From a virus, in the IMG/VR virus record IMGVR_UViG_3300037847_003296, positions 1 through 26,745 of that record: a stretch of DNA of 26,745 nucleotides; one strand, 5' to 3'. The position numbers were made by a program, and so were the translations under genes. Below are positions 512 through 23,550 of the stretch, piece after piece (within the stretch, counting starts at the first letter, position 1; each line of letters starts with the position of its first letter). The notes beneath the pieces were generated by a model that worked only from the letters and a program-made list of their open reading frames with translations, was not told the DNA's origin and made no database searches.

Positions 512-532
512 ATTTCTGTTAGTGTTTATTAG

Positions 533-2836
533 TTAAGACAGCAGATACATAGCTCGATCTATTGCGGTAACATCTAAGTTACCAAGTTCAGGCAGGTCAG
601 GCAGTTCTGCTGTCGGGTTGTTGTTTATTAACTCACATCTGAACTCTTTAAGTAAGTCAATAGCATAAATATTTTTGTAGGTTTTTCTTACATCTTGGTG
701 TACTTTACGTGCGTTGCAAGCGTGGCTTATAAAACAGTCGTGAACAAAACCCATGTCGTACGTCATTCCGTACGCTAGTGTGTGTACAACTGTTGCATCT
801 AAAGCGTGTATAAAGTTAGCAGTGATACAGTTCTTCTGTTCCCGTGGGTCAATGTCATCCAGTGCTTCTGAAAATCGAATATATGTCTTGATGTTATCAA
901 TGATCGTAGCAACCTTGACAACTTTACTTGTGGTCATCTTCTGTATCACTTTGAAACCAAAAGGTGTAGTCCACTTTATCTCTTTATTACCCATATCACC
1001 TGCACAAGCACGTAAGAATTTATGTACACGATCTACGGACACTAACACTTCACGAGCTACCGTATTGAACTGTTCAGCTAGATAATTAATAGCATCTATC
1101 TGTTCACCGTCTCTAAATGGGTGGTTGTCTCCGATCTCATGCAAAAACTTTTGAAGCACGTGAAAGTACGACTGACCGTATGGTTTGTTCATGATAGCTA
1201 ACTTAGCCAGCTTCCTTGTAACACCATATTGAAACCACTGTGACGCTATGTAGCTCTCCTTACTCTGTTCTTTCAGTCGCTCGTACACAAGGTCAGCTAC
1301 CCATTGGTACATATCACCGGGTGGTTGGTCAGGTAAAAGGTTGCAGTGCCTAGCCAGTCCTTCATCACGCAACAACAAGTGAAGTATCTGCATACCATTG
1401 TTACTGCAATCCATACGCACAGGAAAGTGTGACACATATCCGTATCCTTCGTCGTTAAACTTCTTAAACTCATAACAAAAGGCTAAGAATCCAAAAGGTT
1501 CACTCGCTTCCATCCACCAATCGTTCTCGTATGGGTCTTCAGCTGTCTCCAGCATCCAACCTTCGTGCTTCTTTATCCACTCCAGTCGTTCTTCTATGCT
1601 ACCCTTGACTCCCCAGCAATTAGCACCATGTATCAACAAGCGTTCAAGATCGTCTTCATCTACTATCTGCTGACCATTCTTAAATAATAACAATCCTTTA
1701 GCTAAGTCAGTACCCTGTGGATTCAAGTAAGCTGGCATATAGTACAGACGACCACGATAATCAATACGACACGGGAAGAAAACACTATCCCACTCCTTAT
1801 ACTTGTTAGCAAGATGTAGTAACTTCATGTGTACCAAGCGTTTAGATCGGTTGCTCTCATTGATGCGTCGTATCTTATTCTGTTTAAACTTCCACGCACG
1901 TAATTCGTGAGGTCGTTCCAATCCGTTCTCAAGGTACGGTTGCAATGGCACTTCTGTGTAATCCATCAGTTGTCCTGTGTCCCACATATGCTGTGCTACT
2001 TCCAACACCTGCTCATTGATACACCAAGGCACACGCTGCACATTATTCACGGACACGTACATCTTACGTAGATCGTTAAAGGTGTAATGACTCTTGTTAG
2101 GTTTGTTCATTACTAACGGATCATCAAACGTGTCGTATCCTCCGTTGAAATAGTCACTCCAATCGTTTGGTTTGTGTGGTAATGCCATTCGTATCGGATC
2201 AGCTACCTCTTTCCAATGATCAAATCGTCGTGTCCAATCTTTAAACTCAGCACTTAAATGGATAACTCGTAGTTGTTTCTTACCATTGCGTTCCATCCGT
2301 ACTTCAAACAGACCAGTGTGCTTTACTATCTCACCTAACAACCACGCACCCAACGCTATCTTGTGTCGTCGCTCCCACAGCTCAAACCTTCGGTTATTCT
2401 TTTCAGCAGTGTAGAACTTAATACGCTTACCCTTCACACTCTTTGTGTGCTTGATATCGTACATACGATTCTTTGCTATGGTCTCTTCAGCTACTCGTTG
2501 TCGTAGTATATTCTCAAACTCCTTACCTACATTAAACGATAGTCTTGTGTATGCATTGCAACTAGGTATGTAATCAAGTGCTGTCTTCAGTGCTACATGA
2601 GCGATAATTTGTGGATGCAAGTCAGCAATAAAGCACAACCAAATAGGCATACTAACACCCTCTTTGTTGTACCTCTCCATGAAGTCTTCAATCGGTTGTG
2701 CCAGTTCGGGTGCTACTTTAGATAAGATACGCTTGCTACTGGCTAACTCACTACCTCTTTCATTCTCTCGGTAGTATTGTTGGAACTGGCGGTAGGTTGT
2801 CCGTCCCCAGTCCTTCATCTCGGATTCTACGGACAC
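533..2836 (-). CDS. T7-type single-subunit DNA-directed RNA polymerase
   Basis: This 767-residue protein is the phage transcription enzyme; T7 RNA polymerase has 883 residues. All catalytic motifs are visible. Motif A is FPVRMDCSNNG with the metal aspartate D476 (T7 D537). Motif B has R541, K545 and Y553-G (T7 R627, K631, Y639). Motif C is GFVHDCF with D700 (T7 D812). Other T7-like blocks are FPCRIDYRGRLY, NPQGTDLAKGLL, LLIHGANCWGV and FGFLAFCYEF. The 116-residue shortfall lies in the N-terminal domain and in shorter spacings between motifs (K545 to D700 is 155 residues, against 181 in T7). The start is GTG at 2836, two bases after the TAA of the upstream gene and preceded by a GAGAAG ribosome site; an in-frame ATG six codons later is the alternative. 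The polymerase should transcribe the middle and late genes from its own promoters. Confidence 0.97.
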   Translation of the reverse strand: MSVESEMKDWGRTTYRQFQQYYRENERGSELASSKRILSKVAPELAQPIEDFMERYNKEGVSMPIWLCFIADLHPQIIAHVALKTALDYIPSCNAYTRLSFNVGKEFENILRQRVAEETIAKNRMYDIKHTKSVKGKRIKFYTAEKNNRRFELWERRHKIALGAWLLGEIVKHTGLFEVRMERNGKKQLRVIHLSAEFKDWTRRFDHWKEVADPIRMALPHKPNDWSDYFNGGYDTFDDPLVMNKPNKSHYTFNDLRKMYVSVNNVQRVPWCINEQVLEVAQHMWDTGQLMDYTEVPLQPYLENGLERPHELRAWKFKQNKIRRINESNRSKRLVHMKLLHLANKYKEWDSVFFPCRIDYRGRLYYMPAYLNPQGTDLAKGLLLFKNGQQIVDEDDLERLLIHGANCWGVKGSIEERLEWIKKHEGWMLETAEDPYENDWWMEASEPFGFLAFCYEFKKFNDEGYGYVSHFPVRMDCSNNGMQILHLLLRDEGLARHCNLLPDQPPGDMYQWVADLVYERLKEQSKESYIASQWFQYGVTRKLAKLAIMNKPYGQSYFHVLQKFLHEIGDNHPFRDGEQIDAINYLAEQFNTVAREVLVSVDRVHKFLRACAGDMGNKEIKWTTPFGFKVIQKMTTSKVVKVATIIDNIKTYIRFSEALDDIDPREQKNCITANFIHALDATVVHTLAYGMTYDMGFVHDCFISHACNARKVHQDVRKTYKNIYAIDLLKEFRCELINNNPTAELPDLPELGNLDVTAIDRAMYLLS

Positions 2837-2837
2837 G

Positions 2838-3035
2838 TTACTTCTCGTTTATGTGGTTGAACCACACCTTAGGACGAACACGAGGGCGGTCTGAACGGAC
2901 AATATTTAAGTGCTTGTCGTAAGTCAGTTCATTCTGTCCCCAAAACCAATCCCAACCCTGATTAACTAAATCAACAATTGTAAGACTTTCGTCGTAGTCA
3001 ATCATTATCTCCTCGTGTTCGTCCGTATCGTCCAT
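2838..3035 (-). CDS. small acidic early protein, unknown
   Basis: This 65-residue protein has an acidic N-terminal half (MDDTDEHEEIMIDYDES), a Trp-rich centre (QGWDWFWGQNEL) and a more basic C-terminal half with several Arg and Pro residues. Its ATG at 3035 comes three bases after the stop of the previous gene, with a weak TGAGAG site. Its TAA lies directly before the polymerase GTG, so the two genes are probably translationally coupled. I do not recognise a family. Its position just before the polymerase corresponds to the host-takeover part of T7-like early regions, but nothing in the sequence defines a role. Confidence 0.75.
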   Translation of the reverse strand: MDDTDEHEEIMIDYDESLTIVDLVNQGWDWFWGQNELTYDKHLNIVRSDRPRVRPKVWFNHINEK

Positions 3036-3038
3036 CTC

Positions 3039-3185
3039 TCAGTCTTGTTTGTTTGTTTCGTAACGATCAATCATTGCGTCCTCGTACAAAGCTTTAAGTT
3101 CTTCTAGTTCTTCTTCGGTTAAATCATCTTCGTCCTCGTAGTCAAGGAAGCTTGTTAACCAACTGTCGTAGTTTACTCCTCTCAC
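3039..3185 (-). CDS. 48-residue acidic protein with GTG start, unknown
   Basis: This short gene reads MRGVNYDSWLTSFLDYEDE at its start and continues with a very acidic helix-like stretch (DDLTEEELEELKALYED). It starts at GTG 3185, overlapping the TGA of the upstream gene in a GTGA arrangement. The start is supported by a strong GGAGGAA ribosome site ending six bases upstream, within the end of the previous gene. It ends at TGA 3039, three bases before the next ATG. Close packing on both sides, the good ribosome site and the intact frame make it a likely real gene. No family is recognised. Its charge would suit a DNA-mimic or protein-binding inhibitor, but that is speculation. Confidence 0.7.
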   Translation of the reverse strand: MRGVNYDSWLTSFLDYEDEDDLTEEELEELKALYEDAMIDRYETNKQD

Positions 3186-3433
3186 TTTTCTTCCTCCAAA
3201 TATTCAACAGACTCTATCTTGACCTTTACCAAGCGTTGAGTGCTACTAGGTTTATCAAACCCACGATGTTTCGGTACACCTTTGATTAAATCCTTAGCCT
3301 TCATATTCATTGCTAGTTCAATTAAATAGACCGCCGGATAGAAAAACTTCAAGCGTCTTTCATCCTCTTCAAACATTGCGTACAATACATCAGGTTCTTC
3401 TCCGTCATTTCTATAGTCTGTTATTTCATTCAT
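3182..3433 (-). CDS. small early protein, unknown
   Basis: This 83-residue protein starts at ATG 3433 with a good AGAGGAAG ribosome site. The N-terminal half is acidic (EEPDVLYAMFEEDERR) and is followed by a hydrophobic, helix-like segment (FFYPAVYLIELAMNMKAKDL, about residues 30-49). A basic and then acidic C-terminus follows (QRLVKVKIESVEYLEEEK). Eight bases of its start overlap the end of the preceding gene, and its TGA overlaps the GTG of the following gene, as in a translationally coupled operon. I recognise no domain. The hydrophobic segment is broken by charges, so a soluble helical protein is more likely than a membrane protein. Confidence 0.8.
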   Translation of the reverse strand: MNEITDYRNDGEEPDVLYAMFEEDERRLKFFYPAVYLIELAMNMKAKDLIKGVPKHRGFDKPSSTQRLVKVKIESVEYLEEEK

Positions 3434-3581
3434 AGGTTTCTTCCTCTCTTAATTTTTCTCTCAGGTCTGTGAGCATGGCATACAACTCAAAGTGTTCATT
3501 CTCATCGTCAATCTCACCATTCATTTCGTTGTGTAAAATATGATCTAGGACTCGGTTAATGTGTGCTATCGTTTCTCTCAT
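3426..3581 (-). CDS. 51-residue early protein, unknown
   Basis: The frame runs from ATG 3581 to TGA 3426 and begins MRETIAHINRVLDHILHNEM. It is helical and acidic in character throughout. Its ATG overlaps the TGA of the methyltransferase-like gene by the ATGA arrangement, and its end overlaps the next start by eight bases. No Shine-Dalgarno site is visible, so re-initiation after the upstream gene is the likely way it is translated. The segment NEMNGEIDDENEHFELYAML resembles the start of the 134-residue protein at 4168-4572 (WWIHQNEMGGDFIDPDNRFF, then PLYIEL), which hints that the two share an ancestor. No function is assigned. Confidence 0.7.
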   Translation of the reverse strand: MRETIAHINRVLDHILHNEMNGEIDDENEHFELYAMLTDLREKLREEETYE

Positions 3582-4171
3582 TTGTTTTTATTAATAGTTA
3601 TTTTATCAAGTACAAGCTCAAACCAATCAATCAATGCTTCGGGCGTGTACTCTCGTTGGTATTGTGTACATCTTGTTGTACCTTTTACATTACCACAGAT
3701 GCTCCTTCTCTTTCCCTTCTCACACACATGGATCGTTTCATCTTTAGGTGGAAGGTCAGGTAATTCATCACGACCAATACCCTTTATTAACAGCTTGGTT
3801 TTCTTGTGTGCTACATGACCGAAGTCATACTGATCTATCTCGATAACGAAACTACCATCAATGTAAAATACCTCAGAATCAGTTACAATGTGTCGATAAA
3901 TATCCCACAGCTTACTACCACTCGGATGTTCAACAATACCACCGACTCGGTTAAGTTTTTCTAGTGACCAAACAGCTAGTTCTTTTTCTCCCTCACGAGG
4001 TGATGCCATGTGCGATAATCTACCCCAAGCACGACAAGGTGGATGACAAACGACAGGTAAGTTTCCATTATATTTAGTAGCATCCCTATCAATGTCGTAA
4101 ACATCCCACGCAGTGCGTTTTTTGTAAGCACTATCGGTTCGACAAAACAAAGCTGTGTACTTCTTACTCAT
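3578..4171 (-). CDS. DNA methyltransferase-like protein with PPC motif (putative)
   Basis: This 197-residue protein has VCHPPCRAWGRLS around residues 41-53, with C46 in a PPC motif like the catalytic motif of cytosine-C5 methyltransferases. It then has VGGIVEHPSGSKLW (about 76-89) and YDFGHVAHKKTKLLI. The C-terminus has a Cys-containing stretch and a QREYTPEALIDWF ending. I recall phage and prophage proteins with the same order (PPC near the N-terminus, a G-V-EHP-G-S-LW block, a GH..KKT block and a TP..W tail) annotated as methylase-like. It is too short for a full methyltransferase and lacks an obvious target-recognition domain. A role in modifying or protecting phage DNA is inferred. Both ends overlap neighbours by four bases (ATGA). 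The start ATG 4171 is well fixed by that overlap. Confidence 0.6.
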   Translation of the reverse strand: MSKKYTALFCRTDSAYKKRTAWDVYDIDRDATKYNGNLPVVCHPPCRAWGRLSHMASPREGEKELAVWSLEKLNRVGGIVEHPSGSKLWDIYRHIVTDSEVFYIDGSFVIEIDQYDFGHVAHKKTKLLIKGIGRDELPDLPPKDETIHVCEKGKRRSICGNVKGTTRCTQYQREYTPEALIDWFELVLDKITINKNK

Positions 4172-4572
4172 AGGTAATGTACATTTGAAGGTTCAACTTT
4201 ATCCCAACGGACGCAAAACTCGTGCAACCATTTCCGCTGTGACTCCTTAAGTTTTAAAGAACCACCTTCCAATGACTCATAAAGAATACTTTCAGCAGAA
4301 CAATCTTCGTTTTCCACGTAATTTCTAGGTAAATTTTCAACGAGCCAGTCTGTGTATTCGTTTTGCAATTCGGTTATTTTCATCTCGGTTTTATCTTTCT
4401 TTAGTTTCATCATTTTCTTTTGTTGCTCATGGTCAAGTAATTTCTGCAATTCTATATAAAGAGGAAAGAATCGGTTATCTGGATCAATAAAATCCCCTCC
4501 CATTTCATTCTGGTGAATCCACCACATTAATTCTTCGATCATGGTTTCAGGTGTTAGTATGGTTTCTTTCAT
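4168..4572 (-). CDS. 134-residue early protein, unknown
   Basis: The protein looks as if built from two parts. An N-terminal helical part (about residues 1-50) contains MIEELMWWIHQNEMGGDF and is followed by a Lys/Met-rich linker (KKMMKLKKDK). A C-terminal part from about residue 64 contains ITELQNEYTDWLVEN and ends in LKESQRKWLHEFCVRWDKVE. The second part resembles, from memory, small proteins common in marine phages that end in a Q-R-W-L..F..RWD helix; no function is known to me. The N-terminal part resembles the 51-residue protein at 3426-3581. It starts three bases after the upstream stop and overlaps the next gene by ATGA. Confidence 0.8.
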   Translation of the reverse strand: MKETILTPETMIEELMWWIHQNEMGGDFIDPDNRFFPLYIELQKLLDHEQQKKMMKLKKDKTEMKITELQNEYTDWLVENLPRNYVENEDCSAESILYESLEGGSLKLKESQRKWLHEFCVRWDKVEPSNVHYL

Positions 4573-4575
4573 AGT

Positions 4576-4773
4576 TCAATCCTTTATCATGGTCAGGTAA
4601 CCTTCTTCCTCTACCCAAAAGTTCCAACCTTCTCTCCAGTCGGTTTCATCGTAGTCTTGCCAGTCTCCCGATCTATCTCGGTTAATTTCTGCTAACACTT
4701 CAGTCAGTGTCCATTGAAATGTTCTATTGGTTTCAGTGTCTTTCATTGTGTAAGTCATGGTTTCTTTAGTCAT
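4576..4773 (-). CDS. small Trp-rich acidic protein, unknown
   Basis: This 65-residue protein has an unusual density of Trp, Asp and Glu in its second half (GDWQDYDETDWREGWNFWVE). The N-terminus is Thr-rich. The start is ATG 4773, which overlaps the last eight bases of the tiny membrane-peptide gene upstream; a second ATG five codons in is an alternative. Neither has a clear ribosome site, so coupling to the upstream reading frame is likely. No family is recognised. It may be a small protein-binding factor, but I see nothing specific. Confidence 0.75.
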   Translation of the reverse strand: MTKETMTYTMKDTETNRTFQWTLTEVLAEINRDRSGDWQDYDETDWREGWNFWVEEEGYLTMIKD

Positions 4774-4840
4774 CGGAGTATAGTATGGATATTAATAGTA
4801 GTGCTAACATGGTTAGGCTTAGTAGTGTTATCATTGACAT
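4766..4840 (-). CDS. 24-residue hydrophobic membrane peptide (putative)
   Basis: This very short frame (ATG 4840 to TAA 4766) encodes one hydrophobic helix, MSMITLLSLTMLALLLISIL, followed by YSDD. It fits exactly between the lipoprotein gene (ends 4844) and the next gene (starts 4773, eight-base overlap), leaving no gap. That packing is the main reason to call it real. A single-span peptide of this size could be a membrane-perturbing or regulatory micropeptide. The ribosome site is weak (GAAAG, about seven bases upstream). It could instead be a leader that couples translation. Confidence 0.5.
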   Translation of the reverse strand: MSMITLLSLTMLALLLISILYSDD

Positions 4841-4843
4841 GGT

Positions 4844-4987
4844 TTATCTTTCGGTTGGTACTTCCAGTCCACAGATCGGACAAAAATCTCCGTGACCGGG
4901 CATTGGACAGCATAAGTTTTGCTTGCAAGGATTCATTGAACAGCTCGCAAAGGTTAATAGTAGTAATGTTATGAGTATTGGTTTCAT
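4844..4987 (-). CDS. small Cys-rich lipoprotein (putative superinfection-exclusion or envelope protein)
   Basis: This 47-residue precursor has a classic lipoprotein signal peptide: MKPILITLLLLTFASC, with lipobox F-A-S-C and the lipidated cysteine at C16. The mature part is only about 32 residues and has five more cysteines (C21, C26, C27, C36, C39), including the knuckle-like pattern CCPMPGHGDFCPICG, which could bind a metal or form disulfides. Small phage lipoproteins made early include receptor-blocking ones such as T5 Llp; outer spanins of the Rz1 type are the other well-known class but belong with late lysis genes. Here the gene is in the early operon, so superinfection exclusion is the better guess. 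Its ATG overlaps the upstream TGA (ATGA), and a tiny membrane-peptide gene follows four bases later. Confidence 0.75.
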   Translation of the reverse strand: MKPILITLLLLTFASCSMNPCKQNLCCPMPGHGDFCPICGLEVPTER

Positions 4988-5178
4988 CTTACGTTGAGTT
5001 GTCTCTTTCCCCTACATAGTTCATCATATTCGTAATCACTCACTACATGAGTTTTAAAGTCAAGATCAGTTAGTTCTTTCTTCACGTACAAATTATAAAA
5101 TCCTTTAAAATCTTTCTTTGGATGTTTCGATATTATGTACCAATGTTCGTTGTTTGTATCGGTTATTTTGATTTTCAT
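4984..5178 (-). CDS. 64-residue early protein, unknown
   Basis: A small basic protein beginning MKIKITDTNNEHWYIISKHP, with alternating hydrophobic and polar residues that suggest a beta-rich fold (YNLYVKKELTDLDFKTHVV). It starts one base after the upstream TAA (TAAATG) and ends overlapping the ATG of the lipoprotein gene. No Shine-Dalgarno site is visible, so it probably depends on coupling to the upstream gene. No family is recognised. Confidence 0.75.
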   Translation of the reverse strand: MKIKITDTNNEHWYIISKHPKKDFKGFYNLYVKKELTDLDFKTHVVSDYEYDELCRGKRQLNVR

Positions 5179-5179
5179 T

Positions 5180-5485
5180 TCATTTAGATATTTGTATTTG
5201 CTCCAACACGCAATCGGCTAGCTGTTCAGCAAGGTCAATAGACAATTCTTCAATGTCATCATCCGCACTTAATTCTGTCACAGCCCAGTGTTTGTGAAAG
5301 TAACAAGCACCAGAGAAAGAGTTGTCACCAGATTGAAAGTTCAATTCTTCAAGATTATCACAAGTGCTAAATGTCATTTGTATTGTATCACTGTTTCCAG
5401 TTTCATCGTAACTAGGTAAGTAGTCTTCAAGAATTGAAAAGATGGATGTTTGTAATGCTTTTATTTTTTGATCAATGTTTTTCAT
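5180..5485 (-). CDS. 101-residue acidic early protein, unknown
   Basis: The protein is acidic. It has an N-terminal helix (MKNIDQKIKALQTSIFSILE), a middle beta-like part with TIQMTFSTCDNLEELNFQSG and FSGACYFHKHWAVTEL, and an acidic amphipathic C-terminal helix (DDDIEELSIDLAEQLADCVL). The layout suggests a small alpha/beta protein. The ATG at 5485 follows an 11-base A-rich spacer that holds one copy of the AACCGA motif discussed in the findings, with no ribosome site. It is followed one base later by the next gene. No function is assigned. Confidence 0.75.
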   Translation of the reverse strand: MKNIDQKIKALQTSIFSILEDYLPSYDETGNSDTIQMTFSTCDNLEELNFQSGDNSFSGACYFHKHWAVTELSADDDIEELSIDLAEQLADCVLEQIQISK

Positions 5486-5496
5486 TTTTATCGGTT

Positions 5497-5649
5497 TTAT
5501 TTAGATAGTTCTATTAGTCTTTGTTTTGCTTGGTAAAAAGCTGGATGTACATTTCTTAATGTCGGTAAGTCAATACTACTATATCCCATCCTTTCCATTA
5601 GTTTTCGTTTCATCTTTAAATAGGCTCGGTTTGCTTGTGTTCTTGTCAT
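5497..5649 (-). CDS. 50-residue basic early protein, unknown
   Basis: I place the start at ATG 5649, four bases after the upstream stop (5654), giving a protein that begins MTRTQANRAYLKMKRKLMER. An in-frame ATG at 5679 would add ten residues but would overlap the preceding gene by 26 bases. The N-terminal half is a strongly basic helix, and the C-terminus (HPAFYQAKQRLIELSK) is also helical. A nucleic-acid-binding role would suit the charge but cannot be shown. No family is recognised. Confidence 0.65.
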   Translation of the reverse strand: MTRTQANRAYLKMKRKLMERMGYSSIDLPTLRNVHPAFYQAKQRLIELSK

Positions 5650-5653
5650 GATA

Positions 5654-6070
5654 TTATATTGATAAGGTTTGATCGTCATTTACATAAATCCAACACTCGC
5701 CAAAGTCTTTGCAAGCATCGGTTAATCGGTTGCCCAGATCATCGTCAATTCCGTTTCTATCCCAAAAGCCCGCCCCGTGCCCGTTTCTAGTAAGCCAAAA
5801 ATCATGACCGGCAACCTCATAAGGTGACAAACATTCCTCGGAGTTATAACTAACATTATCTGCATACTCCACTAGATCATCATGATTTGATTCAATGAAC
5901 TTTATACAATCGTTTGTAATGGTTTGTTTTGCGTCATCATCAAAAGCAGTGATATCAAACTTTTCATCTAAAAATTCACATTCGGTTTGGTCAGGATCAT
6001 TTGAACTCCACAAGCTTGCAATCTTATAGCCAGTTATAAAGTCTTTGTAGTAATTAGGTTTATTTTTCAT
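5654..6070 (-). CDS. 138-residue conserved phage protein, unknown function
   Basis: This acidic protein has a distinctive C-terminal block: YEVAGHDFWLTRNGHGAGFW, then DRNGIDDDLGNRLTDACKDF, then GECWIYVNDD. The G-HDFW-TRN-GHG-GFWDR signature recurs, as I recall, in many unnamed phage proteins, so this is probably a conserved family rather than an orphan. Its function is not known to me. The N-terminal half (DFITGYKIASLWSS) is helical and acidic. The gene lies five bases after the previous stop. No ribosome site is seen before ATG 6070; the spacer is A- and T-rich. Confidence 0.85.
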   Translation of the reverse strand: MKNKPNYYKDFITGYKIASLWSSNDPDQTECEFLDEKFDITAFDDDAKQTITNDCIKFIESNHDDLVEYADNVSYNSEECLSPYEVAGHDFWLTRNGHGAGFWDRNGIDDDLGNRLTDACKDFGECWIYVNDDQTLSI

Positions 6071-6075
6071 AAGTT

Positions 6076-6219
6076 TTAAAATTCGGTTTCTAATATTGTT
6101 TTAATGGTTTCAATTGGTTTGCGGTCTCTTAAAGCTTGCAAGATATTATCGTTTTCAAGTGCAATACTTGGTTCAATCAATAGTTCATTGCAAAGTAATA
6201 TGAATTGTGTCTTTGACAT
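6076..6219 (-). CDS. 47-residue early protein, unknown
   Basis: The frame (ATG 6219 to TAA 6076) begins MSKTQFILLCNELLIEPSIA and is predicted helical throughout, ending in LQALRDRKPIETIKTILETE. It fills the gap between two clear genes and ends six bases before the next ATG. The alternation of hydrophobic and charged residues is that of a small soluble helical domain. No family is recognised, and the call rests on packing and composition. Confidence 0.65.
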   Translation of the reverse strand: MSKTQFILLCNELLIEPSIALENDNILQALRDRKPIETIKTILETEF

Positions 6220-6236
6220 AATGGTTTTTTCTTTCG

Positions 6237-6431
6237 TTAGTAGTTTACTATTTCGTACTCGTTGCGCTTGAGTAGTAATTCAATTTGTAAATCTTCATTA
6301 GGTTCAACAAATATCTTACCCTCTTTCTGATAGTCTGGTTGGTTGGTTGCAATTACAGCTTTATAAGTTTTATTTTTGTTAAGTTTGCCATATCCGTCTA
6401 TTGAATAATTAGATTTAGGTTTTATTTTCAT
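6237..6431 (-). CDS. 64-residue basic early protein, unknown
   Basis: A small basic protein (MKIKPKSNYSIDGYGKLNKN) with a likely beta-barrel pattern: short strands separated by glycines and turns (KTYKAVIATNQ, GKIFVEP, LQIELLLKRNEYEIV). This resembles small SH3-like or KOW-like folds in length and rhythm, which is only an impression. The ATG at 6431 is preceded by the purine-rich stretch GAAAGAAAG, a weak ribosome site. No family is recognised. Confidence 0.75.
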   Translation of the reverse strand: MKIKPKSNYSIDGYGKLNKNKTYKAVIATNQPDYQKEGKIFVEPNEDLQIELLLKRNEYEIVNY

Positions 6432-6456
6432 GTTAGTTTTCTTTCTTTCGTTGTGA

Positions 6457-6654
6457 TTAATCGGATGAAATACAAGCGTAAACCGCTATTCCCCATGCCA
6501 GTAAACATAACACTGGAGATAGTAAACAAACAGCAATAAAGCTTTTCTTACTTGGTTTTGGCATATGTCGTTCTAGTGAATCATGATTGCTATAATTAAT
6601 GATACGCTCTTCGATGGTTTTTTGTTTGTTCATGCTCATGTTCTTAGTCTTCAT
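6457..6654 (-). CDS. small C-terminally anchored membrane protein (putative)
   Basis: This 65-residue protein has a polar, basic N-terminal 40 residues (contains KTIEERIINYSNHDSLERH and PKPSKK) followed by one hydrophobic segment, SFIAVCLLSPVLCLLAWGIA, ending VYACISSD at the C-terminus. This is the layout of a tail-anchored inner-membrane protein with its soluble part inside. The ATG at 6654 overlaps the end of the preceding gene by 11 bases. It may act on a host envelope process early in infection; that is inference from position only. Confidence 0.65.
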   Translation of the reverse strand: MKTKNMSMNKQKTIEERIINYSNHDSLERHMPKPSKKSFIAVCLLSPVLCLLAWGIAVYACISSD

Positions 6655-6808
6655 TTTGTACTAAATCACTAAATAAAAACTTATTTCTTAAGTCGCTAAC
6701 AACGATAGAAAATGTTATAAAGTAAATAGTCATATCGAATATCTCACATAAGTGCATGACTGAAAGTAATAATCTACCTTTTAAAGTATCCTTTAAGTTA
6801 AGCTTCAT
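6644..6808 (-). CDS. 54-residue hydrophobic early protein, unknown
   Basis: The frame runs from ATG 6808 to TAA 6644 and begins MKLNLKDTLKGRLLLSVMHL. It has a hydrophobic centre (MTIYFITFSIVVSDL, about residues 26-40) that could span or touch the membrane. It begins just after the stop of the 117-residue gene (6813), with AGGAGG 12 bases upstream, a spacing longer than ideal. It overlaps the next gene by 11 bases. With its neighbour it would make two adjacent small membrane proteins. No family is recognised. Confidence 0.55.
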   Translation of the reverse strand: MKLNLKDTLKGRLLLSVMHLCEIFDMTIYFITFSIVVSDLRNKFLFSDLVQNED

Positions 6809-6812
6809 GTTC

Positions 6813-7166
6813 TTATGCAACCTCCTCTTTTACTTGCTCGTTGTACTTTTTAAGAGTTGCAGTCTTTAAGATATAAAAGGCGTAATGCAAAATAATATCG
6901 TTTAAGCTTGTGGTTTCGTCGTATCGGCAAAGTTCTTTAACTTCCAGTTCTACTTCGTCAAATAATTGAATCTTTGCTCCGTTGTCGTACATATCGAAAC
7001 GAACAAAGTTGACCAACGTCCAAGCCTTGTAGTATTCAAAGTAATAGTTGCAGTTCTCGCATACTTCAATAATTGCATCGTAATAGTCGAATGCATCAAG
7101 ATCATAGTTTAAAGTTACAGACTCAACAAGTGAGTCTATTAGTTCGTCAAATTCGTTTTGGTTCAT
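6813..7166 (-). CDS. 117-residue acidic early protein, unknown
   Basis: A strongly acidic, Tyr-rich protein: MNQNEFDELIDSLVESV, then DLDAFDYYDAIIEVCENC and NYYFEYYKAWTLV. The C-terminus turns basic (TATLKKYNEQVKEEV). The composition (many Asp, Glu and Tyr) is typical of small phage inhibitors, including DNA mimics such as T7 Ocr, which is likewise an early T7 protein of exactly this size (117 residues). I see no sequence similarity to Ocr, so this is only an analogy of size, charge and position. The leader before ATG 7166 is A-rich with no ribosome site. Confidence 0.8.
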   Translation of the reverse strand: MNQNEFDELIDSLVESVTLNYDLDAFDYYDAIIEVCENCNYYFEYYKAWTLVNFVRFDMYDNGAKIQLFDEVELEVKELCRYDETTSLNDIILHYAFYILKTATLKKYNEQVKEEVA

Positions 7167-7196
7167 AATGTTTTTTGGTTTTGGTTTTATTAATAA

Positions 7197-7514
7197 TTAA
7201 GATAATGCCAATCCTACTTTTACAGACTCGCAAGATTTGTCGAAACGAATCAATACTGATGAAAAGTAAGAATCAGAATGATAACCATCCCAGTCGTGAA
7301 GCTCTGGGTCTAAGTTGTTGTATCTAGTCTTAGCCATAAACTCACCTAAGTCATAAACTCTTTTCCTGTAGCGTACAAAAGATGATTCTTCAACTGTATC
7401 GTATGAATCTTTTAATTCGTTTTGCTCTTTTGTTGTGAGGTCATGCCAGTATAAAACTGGTCTATAGTGGTTGTTAGTGATAATTTTCATTCGTAATGTT
7501 TTTTCGTGTTTCAT
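7197..7514 (-). CDS. 105-residue conserved phage protein, unknown function
   Basis: The protein begins MKHEKTLRMKIITNNHYRPV. Its core is VRYRKRVYDLGEFM, then LHDWDGYHSDSYFSSVLIRF, ending VKVGLALS. The combination of V-YDLGEFM and WDG..SDS.FS.V..... is, from memory, shared by many small phage and plasmid proteins without a known role. The start ATG 7514 is firm because AAGGAGA lies at the right distance upstream, one of the few strong ribosome sites in the early region. It is the second gene of the early operon. A link to antirestriction has no support in the sequence. Confidence 0.85.
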   Translation of the reverse strand: MKHEKTLRMKIITNNHYRPVLYWHDLTTKEQNELKDSYDTVEESSFVRYRKRVYDLGEFMAKTRYNNLDPELHDWDGYHSDSYFSSVLIRFDKSCESVKVGLALS

Positions 7515-7527
7515 TTTGTTATTCTCC

Positions 7528-7680
7528 TTATGCGTTGTAATCAGTAGTCACAATTCCCCATCCACTGACTGCTTTCCGTCTACGTTCAATTTCTGCTTTG
7601 GTCACGCTTTGATCTCTGAAGTAGTGTTTAACTATTTTATTGTAATAGTCTAACCGCTTTTGATTTATTGGTTTTTTCAT
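7528..7680 (-). CDS. first gene of early operon, 50-residue basic protein, unknown
   Basis: The frame runs from ATG 7680 to TAA 7528 and begins MKKPINQKRLDYYNKIVKHY. It continues basic and helical (TKAEIERRRKAVSGWG). It is the first gene after the 655-base gene-free region and ends 13 bases before the next start, whose ribosome site lies inside that spacer. The leader directly upstream is a CA-repeat run without a ribosome site. As the first gene downstream of the candidate early promoter it would be among the first expressed. No family is recognised; the charge would suit DNA or RNA binding. Confidence 0.65.
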   Translation of the reverse strand: MKKPINQKRLDYYNKIVKHYFRDQSVTKAEIERRRKAVSGWGIVTTDYNA

Positions 7681-9005: not shown

Positions 9006-10208
9006 TTAACTCCAAAGAAGAGTACCACTACTACGTGATCGTTTATAAAAGCTATCAGTAAACTTTGTTAACTCTTGTTGTAGTAGTTCTTGTTTCCTAC
9101 TGGATATGTTTCTATCAGCATCAGCAGCCATTTGTTCTATCCAGTAAGCAACAGCAATAGCTAACGCATCTAATCTATCATCCTTTAACAGACTACCACG
9201 TTCTCTTGTTATTCGTGATAGTTGATACATAAGTTGATAGGAAGCTTGTTTCTCAGTAGGATAAGCCAAAGCTGAGTTATAGTCGTTATTGATTACTCTA
9301 GGGTCTATGATAAGCTTATGACTGTTAAGCACAGGTTCCAGTGTATCGATTATACGTAGTTCTTTTTGTTTACTGTGACGTACTTCCTCTAGTGTTACCG
9401 GGTACGTAGTACGAAACAAAGGTTTAATCAGTTCAGAAAAGATACCGTCACCAAAGTTACTTTCTACTACGACTTTGTTAACCTTGTTACGTTTAGCTAC
9501 ATCAACCAGTTCTTTTAGTGTTTGTTCTCCGTATCCACCCTTTAGACCACCTGCTTCAGGTACGTACAGATAACCGTTAAGCATCTTTACTACAGCATAA
9601 CCTGTTTCATCAACACCGCGACCAGACGGGTCTATAGACATAACACTACCACTGTACGGTACGTCCTCTCCAATAACCTTACTGGGACGTTTGTATCGGT
9701 CGCCGTTAAAGCCTACGTTAGGAAGCGTCCTGTCAGCTTTCTCAGGGTCACTTGACCACAGTATCTTTTCAGGAGCTGTATCAACGTCTACGTCGTAAAG
9801 GACTAGATCGTTAATCTTCAGAGGGAATCTGTCTTGGTCTGATAGTCGTGGGTTGAGTAAGAACTGAAGGGAATAACCACTACGACCATAAGATAGCTTA
9901 CGTTCGTCTAAGTCCATATCAGTGAACCGTAGTGGTTCTGTAGTCTTACCTATGTTATCCTCAGTGGTGTTATCTGATATAAAGGGTGCTAGAGCGTCTC
10001 CATAGATGTTTGTTACCGTAGAGGGGCATGGGTATTCAGAAGGCATGATAAACGCCTTGTAGCCCCGTTCCTGAAGCTTTTGATAGATACTCTCTTCTGT
10101 TTGGGGAGTACCAAGGAATACGATCTTGGAGGTGTCTAGTGGTTTAATGATAGCGTCTGTTTCCTTTACGGCTTCCGATAGCTTGTCTCTCATGCCCTGT
10201 GTGGCGGA
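9006..10208 (-). pseudogene. terminase large subunit, C-terminal part (T7 gp19-like), out of frame with its N-terminal part
   Basis: This frame holds the rest of the packaging ATPase and its nuclease, about 400 residues from the join at 10208. Visible T7 gp19 blocks are SATQGMRDKLSE, IVFLGTPQTEESIYQKL (the coupling motif), LSYGRSGYSLQFLLNP, then the RNase-H-like nuclease: SIDPSGRGVDETGYAV, VVVESNFGDGIFSEL, LRIIDTLEPV and LLKDDRLDALAIAVAY, with the metal-binding acids. The frame is open further upstream to 10256 only because of overlap with the first part; nothing conserved lies there. The expected block between SVKSL and SATQG is absent (T7 has about 24 residues there, including the Walker B ADD). 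As written the sequence cannot make a working terminase. An assembly or sequencing error and a genuinely defective copy are both possible. Confidence 0.9.
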
Positions 10209-10632
10209 GAGACTTGACGGACGGGGCGTGTGACGCTGGAGCAGGACCAACATCAAAAGACACCTTACTGAACCGTTGGTCTTCCGTTGGTTTTAGTTGG
10301 TGCAGTACTGGTATATCATTAATAAGACGCTGACAAAATGTACTAAATTCATCAGCACGAACCTTACTAGCAGATACAACAAGTATGTTTTTAGATGGGT
10401 CCATCAGCAGTTCCCACACTACATAAGCACTTGTTATCCAAGACTTTCCACAACCACGAAACGCCATGACAATACTACGCTTCGGACCGTGTTGTAGGTG
10501 GTCACATATAGCGTACTGTAGCGGTGTTGGATCAGGCAGGTTTAAGTGCCTCCATACCAAACAGACAAAGTTCTTAAAGTTCTTTAACTGTGGTGGTACG
10601 TTAAGCTCCGGCTGCTTGTTGCTCTTCCTCAT
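10144..10632 (-). pseudogene. terminase large subunit, N-terminal part (T7 gp19-like)
   Basis: This is the start of the packaging motor ATPase. It has the T7-like entry LKNFKNFVCLVWRHLNLP, the Walker A segment AFRGCGKS (residues 57-64 from ATG 10632), VWELLMDPSKNILVVSASK and SFDVGPAPASHAPSVKSL. Homology stops after SVKSL at about 10210. The frame then reads 22 unrelated residues to a stop at 10144, while the conserved protein resumes one base away in another frame. I prefer the ATG at 10632, which overlaps TerS by 32 bases and gives a T7-like N-terminus; an in-frame TTG at 10656 is the alternative. The ATPase and nuclease would normally be one protein of roughly 560-590 residues. Confidence 0.9.
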
Positions 10633-10849
10633 TCTCGGTGAAAGGTAAGGCTTCAAATTCTTTTGCTAGGTCATTAACAGGAGTACCATTACGATTATCA
10701 ACAGTTATGTTGTTATCCTTTAGCCATTTACCCACAGCGTTCATAAGTGCTGGGTTGTACTCCTCCATAGTATTCATGTACTCAACAGCATTCTGGCACA
10801 CCTTTGTGTAACTGTCAGCTAGTTTACATCCTTCTACGTGATCTTTCAT
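10601..10849 (-). CDS. terminase small subunit, T7 gp18-like
   Basis: This 82-residue protein (T7 gp18 has 89) begins MKDHVEGCKLADSYTKVCQN. It has the helical core YNPALMNAVGKWLKDNNITV, which resembles the P-L-NA-GK-L---N pattern of T7-type small terminases, and an acidic, Gln-rich tail. It lies directly before TerL and overlaps it, as small and large subunits do in this group. The small subunit recognises the concatemeric DNA and regulates the large subunit. The start ATG 10849 is seven bases after the stop of the fibre gene. The call rests on position plus this short motif. Confidence 0.8.
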   Translation of the reverse strand: MKDHVEGCKLADSYTKVCQNAVEYMNTMEEYNPALMNAVGKWLKDNNITVDNRNGTPVNDLAKEFEALPFTENEEEQQAAGA

Positions 10850-10856
10850 AAGTTGT

Positions 10857-12548
10857 TTATGTCACAATTGTTACATCGTTAATTCTTGCACCAACATGGT
10901 AAAGGGATACATCGACATACAGATCGTTTCCGTTGGTGAGCGTTGGTGCTGTGTAAAAGGTGACATAATCCTGCCCTGCTTCTTCGACTACTTCAAATCT
11001 TACACCGCGAGTTCCCTGACCATGATACCCGTGAGCATTACCACTTAAGTCTCTTAAATAAAGTGCTTGGGTATCCCCCGCTCTAACAGTATAAACCTCA
11101 TACAACTCACCTATAGTAAGATTCCCTGTTCCGTCTAATGAAATTACTTTTGGTCTTGATGCAGATGGATAGCTGTAATTACTGTCTGTAGCTGTTTCAA
11201 AAACAAAGTTTGGATTCTGACTATAGACTGTCTCTTTGCGTTGATACTTTATTTCGTTCGTAGATGCGTAGTGCCTTATACGAAAAAAGTCGCCCGGTGA
11301 TACGCTTTTAGTGCCTACTGTGTTAGTTGTGCTATCAATTTCTAAGTAAGGCGAATCTACATCGTAATCTGTATCGCTATACTTTAGCCCTACCCTGACA
11401 TTGTCAGAACTCCATTGGAACTGCACATAACCATCTGAATTGCCTTCTATCTTTTGCGATGAAGACGCTCCTGCGTTCCATCCGTTTGTACCGCTTATCT
11501 TTTCAAGACCACCACCGGCATACGCTTGAACTGTTCCTCCACTCACTGTTCCTTGAAAGATTGAGGCCGAACTGAACTCCCGTAGGGTATTCAAGGTGCT
11601 TATTTTAAATCCCGACACGGCAGTTACTGTGGTATACTCAGCGTATCCGGCGGAACCCGAAACAGTCACCGAATTATTATTATCGGTCTGCCCGTTACTT
11701 TTTATGGGAAAGACTCTTATACTATCGTTACTTTCAATTTTGATTATTAAATCAGTCCCCGAAGCGATGTTTTGAGAAAATATTTGTTTGATCGCAACTT
11801 GACTGCCTGAACCCTCTATAATCCCTTTAGCTAACTTAGTTTGATTGAGACTTCCATTTGATACAGTCCAATCGGCAGGAACTTTATCAACTACTTCCCA
11901 ATTTATACCCCTGTGGCTAACCCATACCATGTTATCAGTTGAAATTTGAATATTGGCTTTGCCATTCCCGACATGGTATCTGTGCATTTCATATACTTCA
12001 CCCTCAGTTATTCCGTCTATTGTTTTTAACGCAATGACAAGAGGACGATTTGTAGATGCAAAAACATAGTGGGTGTTATGGTTTCCGTTTGGACTTGTAG
12101 GAAAAGTATAGGAAGTGTTTTCAACATAACTTAATTGCGAAAAGTCTCCGTTAGTAAGTTTTTCCCCACTCAGATTTATCTCCGTAAGATTCGTCCAACT
12201 AACGGCATTGCTAATTCCTTTGATACCTAGAGTTTCTAACGCGGTTACACGGTTTGTCAGAGCGGTCATATCCGACTCCATCGTGGACATCTTCGTGTCC
12301 TTCTCGTTCTTGTCGGATTCTAGTGCAGATACCCTTGTGTCTTTGTCGTTTTTATCAGACTCCAGATTAGCTATTTTAGCATCCTTTACAGCTTTGTCTG
12401 CTTCTAGATCGGCAAGCTTCGTATCCTTTACTGATTTATCAGCTAAGAAGTCTGTTTCTAATTTATCTAAGTCACTAGCAGAACTAACCGCAATCGTCCT
12501 AGATGCAGCTTTAGTAGGATCAATGCGTACTCTCGGAGTCCTAGGCAT
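10857..12548 (-). CDS. tail fibre or spike protein with coiled-coil stalk and repeated beta domain
   Basis: This 563-residue protein has an N-terminal basic segment (MPRTPRVRIDPTKAASRTIA) and then five tandem 14-residue heptad-type repeats (residues 36-105, pattern DKxxKDTxxxxLE), a trimeric coiled-coil stalk by appearance. A long beta-rich region follows. Two similar domains flank it: one around residues 167-222 (NRPLVIALKTIDG, GEVYEMHRYHVG, INWEVVDKV) and one around 464-523 (SRPKVISLDGTG, GELYEVYTVRAG, VRFEVVEEA). Between them lies a lectin-like block from about 355 (GTNGWNAGASSSQ, DGYVQFQW, DFFRIRHY). The duplicated domains suggest host-surface binding. It follows the 47-residue gene as TAAATG. 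It is not the gp17 homologue, which is at 14887-16095, so the particle probably has more than one adhesin. Confidence 0.7.
   Translation of the reverse strand: MPRTPRVRIDPTKAASRTIAVSSASDLDKLETDFLADKSVKDTKLADLEADKAVKDAKIANLESDKNDKDTRVSALESDKNEKDTKMSTMESDMTALTNRVTALETLGIKGISNAVSWTNLTEINLSGEKLTNGDFSQLSYVENTSYTFPTSPNGNHNTHYVFASTNRPLVIALKTIDGITEGEVYEMHRYHVGNGKANIQISTDNMVWVSHRGINWEVVDKVPADWTVSNGSLNQTKLAKGIIEGSGSQVAIKQIFSQNIASGTDLIIKIESNDSIRVFPIKSNGQTDNNNSVTVSGSAGYAEYTTVTAVSGFKISTLNTLREFSSASIFQGTVSGGTVQAYAGGGLEKISGTNGWNAGASSSQKIEGNSDGYVQFQWSSDNVRVGLKYSDTDYDVDSPYLEIDSTTNTVGTKSVSPGDFFRIRHYASTNEIKYQRKETVYSQNPNFVFETATDSNYSYPSASRPKVISLDGTGNLTIGELYEVYTVRAGDTQALYLRDLSGNAHGYHGQGTRGVRFEVVEEAGQDYVTFYTAPTLTNGNDLYVDVSLYHVGARINDVTIVT
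12234..12443 (-). repeat. five 42-base repeats encoding a coiled-coil stalk
   Basis: Five in-frame units of 42 bases encode 14-residue repeats (ADKSVKDTKLADLE, ADKAVKDAKIANLE, SDKNDKDTRVSALE, SDKNEKDTKMSTME, SDMTALTNRVTALE). The repeats diverge at the base level but keep the heptad pattern, so length variation by recombination is plausible. Confidence 0.85.
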
Positions 12549-12692
12549 TTAAGCAGTACCGTCAGAAACAATCTCTGTCCAAGCAGCTCCGTCCCAAACG
12601 ATAATCTTATTAGTGTCCGTCTCAAAGTATGCTTCACCAGCAGCTGGCGAACTAGGACGGGTGGATGATGTGACTGTGTTTAAAGTAGCCAT
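12549..12692 (-). CDS. 47-residue small virion-associated protein (putative)
   Basis: The frame runs from ATG 12692 to TAA 12549 and begins MATLNTVTSSTRPSSPAAGE. It continues with AYFETDTNKIIVWDGAAWTE. The RP..P..G..YFETDTNK...WDG..W pattern is a small beta-hairpin module seen, from memory, inside many phage tail fibres. Here it stands alone as a gene. The ribosome site GGAGGAAG lies about nine bases upstream. It abuts the next gene (TAAATG), so it belongs to the adhesin cassette. A similar motif (GEIYMKAAG, VVYDNGSWRTF) opens the LamG protein upstream. Confidence 0.75.
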   Translation of the reverse strand: MATLNTVTSSTRPSSPAAGEAYFETDTNKIIVWDGAAWTEIVSDGTA

Positions 12693-12695
12693 GTG

Positions 12696-12926
12696 TTATT
12701 CTTCCTCCGCAGGTTGTGTCCAAGCTTCCCCTCCCAAAACGGTCAACATTGCCGAATGACTAAGGGTATCTTTTCCATATAAGAATCGTGGTTTAGCTCC
12801 TTCGTATTTAACAAAGGTTTCATCACCTGCTGTATTATACCTTAGTGTATCAACTGATGTTTCAAGTACTTCGTCAAAGTTAACGGTACTTACTTCATCA
12901 GCGTTTAGAATTACGTAATTTCTCAT
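12696..12926 (-). CDS. 76-residue conserved marine-phage protein, unknown
   Basis: The protein begins MRNYVILNADEVSTVNFDEV. It contains TSVDTLRYNTAGDETFVKYE and then TLSHSAMLTVLGGEAWTQP. The V-I--A-EV--V-F--V-ETS-DTLRY pattern followed by T-VKYEG--P-FL resembles, from memory, small proteins found next to tail-fibre genes of marine podoviruses and cyanophages. A small chaperone or attachment accessory for the fibre is possible but unproven. The ATG at 12926 is five bases after the upstream stop and has no ribosome site, suggesting coupling. Confidence 0.75.
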   Translation of the reverse strand: MRNYVILNADEVSTVNFDEVLETSVDTLRYNTAGDETFVKYEGAKPRFLYGKDTLSHSAMLTVLGGEAWTQPAEEE

Positions 12927-12931
12927 AGTTA

Positions 12932-13726
12932 TTAAGATGGTATGTCTGTGTCAATGAAAGCCCCGTTAGCCAATGTAATGTCTTCACCACCCATTTCATC
13001 GGTAATCGTTGTTCCTGTACCTCCATCAGAATCACCCATTCTCCAGTGACCTGCCAAGGTAGAGTACCCTGATAAATCACCCGGCACACCGTTATTATAG
13101 ATGTTGGTTATATCTGATGCTGATAAAGCACTGTTGAAGGTAGCAAATTCGTCGTAGTTAGCATTACAGGATGGTCCGAAGGTTGCATATCCTATAGGTG
13201 TGAAACTACTACCTGTGACTGTAGCTGATAGATCGTCTGATGCAGATTTAACATACGAGGTGTGATTAGTTCCATCGCAAGATAAAGCTAGGAAATACCA
13301 AGTACCAGCAGTAATCGTGTGTATGTGATGCTTATTTGCACCGGATGTATAAAAACGGAATCCGTCAGTTCGTGTCCGTATTTGTATGGTAGGATGCGTG
13401 AAGAAGTTGACCCTATGAGGTATTGTACCTGTAATTTTCATCCAAAAACATAAGGTAAACGCAGTACCTGTGATACCTAATCTGTTACCAGTTGAAGGTA
13501 ATCCTGCTGGCAGTTGAAGCTGATCGTTAGTTCCGTCTGTTTCTACGCTGTAGGTGTTAACAAAACTAACCGCTTCGTTAGCAAATGTTCTCCACGATCC
13601 ATTATCGTATACAACAAGAGCACCTTCATTAGTACTACCTGCTGCTTTCATATATATTTCTCCGTTTAGAGCTGTTGATAGCAGTGCTGTCTGTTCACTG
13701 TCGTTTATTAATCGTATATCACTCAT
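12932..13726 (-). CDS. LamG/concanavalin A-like lectin-domain protein, putative adhesin
   Basis: This 264-residue protein has a short N-terminal module (residues 1-50, with GEIYMKAAGSTNEGALVVYD and NGSWRTFA) and then a LamG-type jelly-roll domain from about residue 55 to the end. Diagnostic pieces are YSVETDGTNDQLQLPAG, FTLCFWMKITG, TWYFLALSCDGTNHTSYV, YDEFATFNSALSASDITNIY, NNGVPGDLSG and GHWRMGDSDGGTG. Such domains bind surface glycans and are common in phage particles. It has no signal peptide, so it is probably a virion component. It starts 21 bases after the preceding small basic gene, across an A/T-rich spacer. Confidence 0.85.
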   Translation of the reverse strand: MSDIRLINDSEQTALLSTALNGEIYMKAAGSTNEGALVVYDNGSWRTFANEAVSFVNTYSVETDGTNDQLQLPAGLPSTGNRLGITGTAFTLCFWMKITGTIPHRVNFFTHPTIQIRTRTDGFRFYTSGANKHHIHTITAGTWYFLALSCDGTNHTSYVKSASDDLSATVTGSSFTPIGYATFGPSCNANYDEFATFNSALSASDITNIYNNGVPGDLSGYSTLAGHWRMGDSDGGTGTTITDEMGGEDITLANGAFIDTDIPS

Positions 13727-13747
13727 AGTTCTTTGTTGTATAAAATA

Positions 13748-14002
13748 TTAGCACTTCCAACGACGCAACGCCAAAGCTTTACGGGTAGGTTTACCGTTCT
13801 TTTCCATTGCACCTTTCATTCCCCTAAAACGAGCACAGAAGGACTTCTTACGAGCTTTCCTTCTACCTGTTGGTCTACTCTCCGTTACAGGAGGTTTTAA
13901 GTTTGAACCAGTCTTATTGTTGATCCTGTTCCTACCTGAATCACTAAGACCACCTTTAGCAGACTTATCCGAAGCTCTTAAAGATATAGAGGCAGACCTC
14001 AT
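13748..14002 (-). CDS. 84-residue basic protein conserved in marine phages, unknown
   Basis: The protein begins MRSASISLRASDKSAKGGLS. It has the recognisable core GLSDSGRNRINNKTGSNLKP followed by PVTE, then RKARKKSFCARFRGMKGAME and NGKPTRKALALRRWKC. From memory, the same order of blocks (SKGGL...GR..YN..TGSNLK.PV, then RRKSFCARM.GM, then NGKPTRKALAL.KW.C) is found in cyanophages and other marine phages with no assigned role. It is strongly basic, which suggests contact with DNA or RNA. Its ATG overlaps the TGA of the upstream gene (ATGA). Confidence 0.85.
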   Translation of the reverse strand: MRSASISLRASDKSAKGGLSDSGRNRINNKTGSNLKPPVTESRPTGRRKARKKSFCARFRGMKGAMEKNGKPTRKALALRRWKC

Positions 14003-14121
14003 TTCTTCTTCTTTATCGCAAGCTTCTTGCGTTGAGCAACAGCAATTATATCAGCTTTAGTTATCTTCTTTTTATCGCCAGCCATAGCAGCTAGTCGTTT
14101 TTGTTTAGGCGTGTATGGCAT
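13999..14121 (-). CDS. 40-residue Lys-rich protein, unknown
   Basis: The frame (ATG 14121 to TGA 13999) reads MPYTPKQKRLAAMAGDKKKI, then TKADIIAVAQRKKLAIKKKK. It starts one base after the upstream stop and ends overlapping the next ATG. The tail KLAIKKK is shared with the 48-residue protein at 14488-14634 and is encoded by an almost identical 28-base stretch. It also shares the MPY opening with the 33-residue gene just upstream. It is very basic and is probably one of a set of related small proteins. Confidence 0.65.
   Translation of the reverse strand: MPYTPKQKRLAAMAGDKKKITKADIIAVAQRKKLAIKKKK
14006..14033. repeat. 28-base direct repeat, copy 1 (copy 2 at 14492-14519)
   Basis: Twenty bases (TTCTTCTTTATCGCAAGCTT), then one differing base and TTGCGTT, occur at 14006-14033 and again at 14492-14519. 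Both copies encode the KLAIKK tails of two small basic genes 486 bases apart. This shows duplication or gene conversion of the gene ends. Confidence 0.85.
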
Positions 14122-14122
14122 C

Positions 14123-14224
14123 TTACTTATCTTTCTTAATCATCAAGCCCTTACGACGCTTCATCTTTTGTTTCTTAGGTGGTCGTCCTACTTGCGATCC
14201 GTATGTTCCAGTACCGTATGGCAT
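14123..14224 (-). CDS. 33-residue basic protein, unknown
   Basis: The frame (ATG 14224 to TAA 14123) begins MPYGTGTYGSQVGRPPKKQK and ends MKRRKGLMIKKDK. It has a Gly/Tyr-rich head and a Lys/Arg-rich tail. It starts two bases after the upstream stop and ends one base before the next ATG. The head pattern MPYGTGTYGS-VGRPPKK is, as I recall, seen in other marine phages as a stand-alone tiny gene. No function is known to me. Confidence 0.6.
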   Translation of the reverse strand: MPYGTGTYGSQVGRPPKKQKMKRRKGLMIKKDK

Positions 14225-14226
14225 AA

Positions 14227-14484: not shown

Positions 14485-14487
14485 CTC

Positions 14488-14881: not shown

Positions 14882-14886
14882 CGTTA

Positions 14887-16095: not shown

Positions 16096-16111
16096 GATAT
16101 TATATTATTAC

Positions 16112-22920: not shown

Positions 22921-22924
22921 AATT

Positions 22925-23548: not shown

Positions 23549-23550
23549 AC

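Follow-up and report, generated by a model that had tools for sequence, protein, structure and literature searches.

An mRNA-sense hexamer concentrated in the early region of a clade of T7-like podoviruses

We analysed a stretch of 26,745 nucleotides (the window) taken from the 27.8-kb IMG/VR record IMGVR_UViG_3300037847_003296, which belongs to an uncultured T7-like podovirus, in which the hexamer TCGGTT had been described, from the letters alone, as massively and locally enriched. The window runs from a single-subunit RNA polymerase (RNAP) gene at 533-2836 through small early open reading frames (ORFs) up to 7680 and a mostly non-coding stretch to the terminase, internal virion proteins, tail fibre and tail genes. 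All window genes are on the - strand, so TCGGTT on the + strand is AACCGA in the mRNAs.

AACCGA in the window

The original prediction listed 20 copies of TCGGTT on the + strand and a single copy in reverse orientation near 17988. All 20 positions are exact and there is no further + copy in the window, and AACCGA occurs on the + strand once, at 17989. Every TCGGTT copy (20 of 20) lies within 1800-6100 (binomial p 1.3e-16, the best of all 6-mers in the window), where order-0/1 composition predicts 1.2-1.9 copies; one-mismatch variants are not enriched.

Codon bias had been dismissed in advance, with a codon-aware shuffle named as the analysis that could overturn this. The enrichment withstands it. 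In the 12 early window ORFs, RNAP included, there are 17 AACCGA compared with 4.7±1.8 after codon-preserving shuffling (maximum 13 in 5000; 0 of 5000 reach 17), and 14 compared with 3.9 (maximum 11) when RNAP is left out. The two reading frames first noticed, AAC-CGA and ..A-ACC-GA., are both used, and frame 1 has to be added to them, at 2692 in RNAP and in ORF 4844-4987. The intergenic occurrence pointed out at 5491 is one of two sites between ORFs, the other being 6083. The supposed preference for A or T just before AACCGA is only partly right: the preceding letter is T in 53% of sites across the clade, and T is 1.9-fold over background in non-homologous sequence.

AACCGA and a second element across relatives

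Relatives' loci were collected by searches with ORF 3578-4171, the terminase and the RNAP, and the pooled set consists of 104 related IMG/VR loci from three subclades (RNAP 44-93% identical). In each nearby subclade, with RNAP >75%, 63-70% and about 45% identical, AACCGA is dense, present on the sense strand only and found in the same place, spanning about -3.2 kb to +1 kb of the polymerase start. Relatives without enrichment, which the original prediction regarded as evidence against itself, are found only among the more distant ones that share ORF 3578-4171 or terminase families; enrichment is present in all three of the RNAP subclades closest to the window. In the 104 loci, the sense and antisense counts are 945 and 3 in the early region (279 kb), 304 and 17 in the first kb of RNAP, and 98 and 24 elsewhere (429 kb), although these pooled counts come from related contigs that are not all independent, and it is the masked, shuffled and per-genome tests that carry weight. 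The density is highest, at 4-5.6 per kb, between -2 and -1 kb, and drops to 0.2-0.6 per kb over the second kb of RNAP. In near-complete relatives (28-37 kb), nearly all AACCGA lie from -2.5 to +1.8 kb of the RNAP start.

The gene content of the early region varies widely among the relatives. With all homologous stretches masked, 112 AACCGA are left in 52.8 kb, compared with 1 antisense, so the common ancestry of genes is rejected as the cause. Non-homologous early DNA contains 96 AACCGA in 40.6 kb, while late DNA contains 5 in 143 kb, and TAACCGA is found 54 times in the early and 0 times in the late non-homologous DNA. In the early genes of 48 non-redundant relatives, 391 AACCGA were observed compared with 135±9 after codon shuffling, and AACCGA is the most enriched of the 4096 6-mers in early genes. 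The sites fall in frame 2 (163), frame 0 (142) and frame 1 (77); the codon-preserving shuffles and this use of three frames reject codon bias or protein repeats as the cause. About three quarters of the sites are within ORFs, and the 127 sites outside called ORFs match the non-coding share. For each of four near-complete relatives, a de novo scan returned AACCGA as the best early-versus-late 6-mer, above the maximum of 60 codon-shuffled genomes.

At 60-70% identity, the conservation of AACCGA sites is 0.38, compared with 0.18 for all 6-mers. Aligned sites are thus retained at about double the rate of other 6-mers, which indicates that positions turn over yet are under selection. Regular spacing is rejected, as the coefficient of variation of the gaps is 0.96 (near random), and there is no significant bias toward accessible RNA sites (unpaired 0.617 vs 0.592 for the word placed elsewhere in the mRNAs, p 0.17). 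As computation shows, the enrichment is sense-only, early-only, frame-independent and upheld despite gene turnover.

In late and DNA-metabolism genes, sense AACCGA is observed 5 times where 30 are expected, TAACCGA 0 times (9.5 expected) and antisense TCGGTT 13 times (22 expected), while the near-cognate AACCGT is not avoided in later genes. Early enrichment and late avoidance together result in a 62-fold density ratio. The late genes of the clade also strongly avoid the palindromes GAATTC, AGATCT, GGATCC, CTGCAG and GATATC, and also GCGC, pointing to restriction pressure.

The AACCGA-marked region contains a second element, element B (TAC[CG]TG[AT]CC(GT)), which is also sense-only and is found in non-homologous contexts and various frames. 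The form TTACCTG[AT]CC belongs to the window's group and the 45% group, and the form TACGTGTCCGT chiefly to the 63-70% group, with occurrences in the others too; judged by their sequences, both are probably one element. AC[CG]TGTCCGT is found in the early region 125 times in sense and 0 times in antisense orientation. The window has six copies of element B (Table 1).

Table 1. Coordinates of genes, AACCGA sites and element B copies in the window
Feature	Coordinates	Strand	Remark
Single-subunit phage RNAP gene	533..2836	-	first kb bears sites, second kb few
Tagged portion of early region	2838..6088	-	small ORFs
First early genes	6089..7680	-	without AACCGA
Terminase, tail, internal virion genes	9006..26353	-	without sense AACCGA
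AACCGA	1847..1852	-	in RNAP ORF
AACCGA	2390..2395	-	in RNAP ORF
AACCGA	2692..2697	-	in RNAP ORF, frame 1
AACCGA	3115..3120	-	in small ORF 3039-3185
AACCGA	3552..3557	-	in small ORF 3432-3581
AACCGA	3947..3952	-	in ORF 3578-4171
AACCGA	4134..4139	-	in ORF 3578-4171
AACCGA	4370..4375	-	in ORF 4168-4572
AACCGA	4385..4390	-	in ORF 4168-4572
AACCGA	4471..4476	-	in ORF 4168-4572
AACCGA	4640..4645	-	in ORF 4576-4773
AACCGA	4678..4683	-	in ORF 4576-4773
AACCGA	4851..4856	-	close to end of small lipoprotein-like ORF 4844-4987
AACCGA	5159..5164	-	in ORF 4984-5178
AACCGA	5491..5496	-	between ORFs, 5 nt upstream of ATG of ORF 5180-5485
AACCGA	5626..5631	-	in ORF 5497-5679
AACCGA	5718..5723	-	in ORF 5654-6070
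AACCGA	5726..5731	-	in ORF 5654-6070
AACCGA	5982..5987	-	in ORF 5654-6070
AACCGA	6083..6088	-	upstream of ATG of ORF 5654-6070; first site by transcript order
Element B, TTACCTGACC	1327..1336	-	in RNAP
Element B variant, ACGTGTCCGT	2049..2058	-	in RNAP
Element B variant, ACGTGTCCGT	2829..2838	-	overlapping RNAP start codon
Element B, TTACCTGACC	3754..3763	-	
Element B, TTACCTGTCG	4051..4060	-	
Element B, TTACCTGACC	4591..4600	-	

Several early ORFs have features of their own. ORF 3578-4171 (- strand) belongs to phrog_12600, and Rhodobacter phage Ebor has a relative that carries the annotation putative DNA methylase. ORFs 3432-3581 and 4168-4572 and their relatives are similar small ORFs with the common pattern NEMxGExDxDxxxFxLYxxLxxL, apparently in multiple copies per genome. 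The 47-aa ORF 4844-4987 (- strand), below the 60-aa ORF cut, has a lipoprotein-like signal (LLLLTFASC) and a CPICG motif. As a candidate T7-type phage promoter, TTAACGACTACACTATAG before the early region was rejected, since it encodes DLNDYTIAG within the ORF 8336-8560 family. Searching the window for Rfam families and tRNAs gave no matches, the phage collection searched contained no isolate closely related to the window phage, and no integrated relative pointed to a host, the window RNAP having no relative in the bacterial and archaeal genomes searched.

A candidate transcript-level tag and its alternatives

Among the roles listed in the original prediction, an RNA motif in early transcripts fits best, because AACCGA is mRNA-sense, frame-independent, confined to the early region and the 5' part of RNAP, and avoided in the later sense strand; primase, modification, Chi and packaging guides leave the 4-kb concentration and the one-orientation purging unexplained. 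We tentatively propose, with slightly less than even confidence, that AACCGA (often UAACCGA) and UAC[CG]UG[AU]CC(GU) serve in one Autographiviridae clade as a transcript-level tag for shut-off by a sequence-specific reader. The tag would mark transcripts from the latter half of the early region, together with the 5' portion of the RNAP message. The early region is presumably transcribed by the host polymerase, as T7-like gene order suggests. The tag on early mRNAs would be recognised by a sequence-specific RNA-binding protein or endoribonuclease that the phage either encodes or redirects. As the phage polymerase takes over, the tagged mRNAs would be shut off, whether through cleavage, decay or a block to translation; middle and late messages, whose sense strand has been cleared of the word, would be spared. 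The tag would thus probably act in RNA and not in DNA during transcription, and its effect on messages would probably be negative. By analogy with RegB and GGAG, a reader that sees RNA would be the simplest option. More tentatively still, both words could form a two-word sense-strand RNA code, selected across unrelated early genes and erased later, and read by an undescribed phage-specified RNA-recognition system that sorts early and later transcripts.

Several points weigh against the tag. No RNase or RNA-binding family was recognised among the window proteins, which were scanned, or the relatives' proteins, which were only inspected and come from incomplete genomes. The first 1.6 kb of early genes is without AACCGA sites. 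The sites are not significantly more unpaired than the word placed elsewhere (0.617 vs 0.592, p 0.17), and folding does not separate the mechanisms. The sense bias of the late avoidance ranks only 18th of 3066 words, which is strong but not unique, so strand-specific avoidance by itself is not exceptional. Finally, the evidence consists entirely of sequence statistics, which do not separate action in RNA from strand-specific action in DNA.

An unlikely alternative, although one with several points in its favour, is a word at which the single-subunit RNAP of the phage itself would pause or terminate. Phage polymerase entering the early region would then be stopped while host polymerase passes, and the word would be purged where phage polymerase must transcribe. 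A sense-only word of about 7 nt that is enriched early, avoided late and ceases within the RNAP gene would suit this role, and the sensitivity of polymerases to such words varies: T7 and Syn5 stop at ATCTGTT and VSW-3 does not (PMC9624206). However, AACCGA is common to polymerases only about 45% identical, no T-run preference exists downstream of it, and dozens of weak terminators across 4 kb seem wasteful; T7 itself has one sense ATCTGTT, at 161, and none in early genes.

Rather more doubtful is a directional roadblock, in which a phage repressor bound to the asymmetric double-stranded DNA word would halt host polymerase in the early region, either for early shut-off or for superinfection immunity. 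As with the pause word, reading would concern the same strand and take place during transcription. The precedent is the stoperators, which are many, asymmetric and transcription-oriented and lose their function on reversal (PMC9283540), but these are 13-mers in short intergenic spaces, whereas about three quarters of AACCGA are inside ORFs, in all frames and as often as the coding content predicts. None of the early proteins examined was recognisable as a repressor, and late-gene avoidance would be unnecessary if host polymerase alone were blocked.

It is improbable that AACCGA is a positive early-mRNA signal, that is, a translation enhancer or a site for a stabilising protein or small RNA, which would benefit early messages in a host that makes little use of Shine-Dalgarno sequences. 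Some copies overlap or adjoin start codons and Shine-Dalgarno matches are scarce in early and late genes, but the sites are spread throughout ORFs and such a signal alone leaves late-gene avoidance unexplained. The loci read show no concentration of perfect complements of AACCGA or element B, and hence no sign of an antisense RNA. As a separate observation, early-region leaders (-4 to -1 kb of RNAP) directly before start codons often read TACTACTA(CT)ATG or CCTTACCTGACCATG.

A DNA-level site (Chi-like, primase, type III restriction or modification) is highly improbable: TCGGTT would be on the strand 3'-ended at the early genome end, the orientation Chi needs, and uniform orientation would also evade type III enzymes, but two unrelated elements have the same distribution, and neither priming nor restriction evasion would lead to clustering within 4 kb and purging from other regions.

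In T7-like phages, early and late expression are generally held to be separated mainly through the choice of polymerase and host shut-off. The distribution of AACCGA suggests a novel means of discriminating early from later messages, and a clade-wide sense-strand early word that late genes have lost hints at an additional level of control based on sequence. Such a tag can be read straight from genomes and outlasts gene replacement, and AACCGA RNA or DNA could be used as bait for pulling out the putative reader. More broadly, short codes at the nucleotide level can extend through dozens of phage genes that are unrelated to one another, whatever the reading frame.

Other phages and known systems

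In order to see how general an early-specific word is, we ran de novo early-versus-late scans against codon-shuffled genomes for cultured isolates and one metagenomic genome (AP013544). T3, K1F, SP6, Syn5, LUZ100, RHEph01, CRP-113 and HTVC019P have no early word above the shuffles. Borderline early words were found in T7 (CGCAAG), P-SSP7 (AAGGAC), AP013544 (TGGGCCG, CGTTGGG), BB8 (CACTGGG) and CRP-361 (CCTGCCG). For example, CGCAAG in T7 (500-6200) occurs 12 times early and 3 times later, where 11.9 copies would be expected, and exceeds every one of 60 codon-shuffled genomes, a borderline AACCGA-like pattern that T3 does not share. On the sense strand of AP013544 (9635-13047), a ATCGTTGGGC-like word is clustered in several frames, with 4 copies in the integrase gene (0.57 expected) and 3 in the RNAP gene (0.12 expected). 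TTTTGC and TAGAAA in ProddE are above the 6-mer shuffles but resemble base composition, and were rejected. Apparent motifs in four loci were likewise rejected, being 10-12-bp arrays after the terminase, tandem or nearly so and unlike AACCGA, with directly repeated units (L094 12745-12861, L086 12775-12858, L123 15459-15573 and L115 11671-11906). Short arrays of direct repeats also exist near T7 genome ends, and the post-terminase arrays resemble them.

Among known systems, RegB of T4 shuts off early messages at GGAG (PMC3014915), and AACCGA is likewise a specific short word in early mRNAs that later mRNAs escape. However, GGAG is found chiefly in translation initiation regions, whereas AACCGA is spread over ORFs (three frames) and untranslated regions, with an intergenic share equal to the non-coding share; and T4 late mRNAs may retain GGAG and resist through context, whereas AACCGA itself is purged from late genes. 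No RegB-family endoribonuclease was recognised among the scanned window proteins or among the inspected proteins of the relatives, whose genomes are incomplete. The T7 class II signal ATCTGTT is a 7-nt, strand-specific, hairpin-free signal that acts on the single-subunit phage RNAP (PMC9624206). AACCGA is unrelated to it in sequence, T7 carries a single sense ATCTGTT (161) and no early cluster, and in the clade genomes ATCTGTT is rarer in sense than in antisense orientation (24 vs 55).

The early proteins examined include no recognisable cognate repressor of the stoperator type. Like the stoperators of Cluster A mycobacteriophages (PMC9283540), AACCGA has many asymmetric copies oriented with transcription (945 sense, 3 antisense); stoperators, however, are intergenic 13-mers of temperate phages, whereas AACCGA is a 6-7-mer mostly within ORFs. 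AACCGA is also short, polarised and over-represented, like Chi (PMC8022716). Unlike Chi, which is spread over host core genomes, it is confined to 4 kb, avoided elsewhere and accompanied by a second element.

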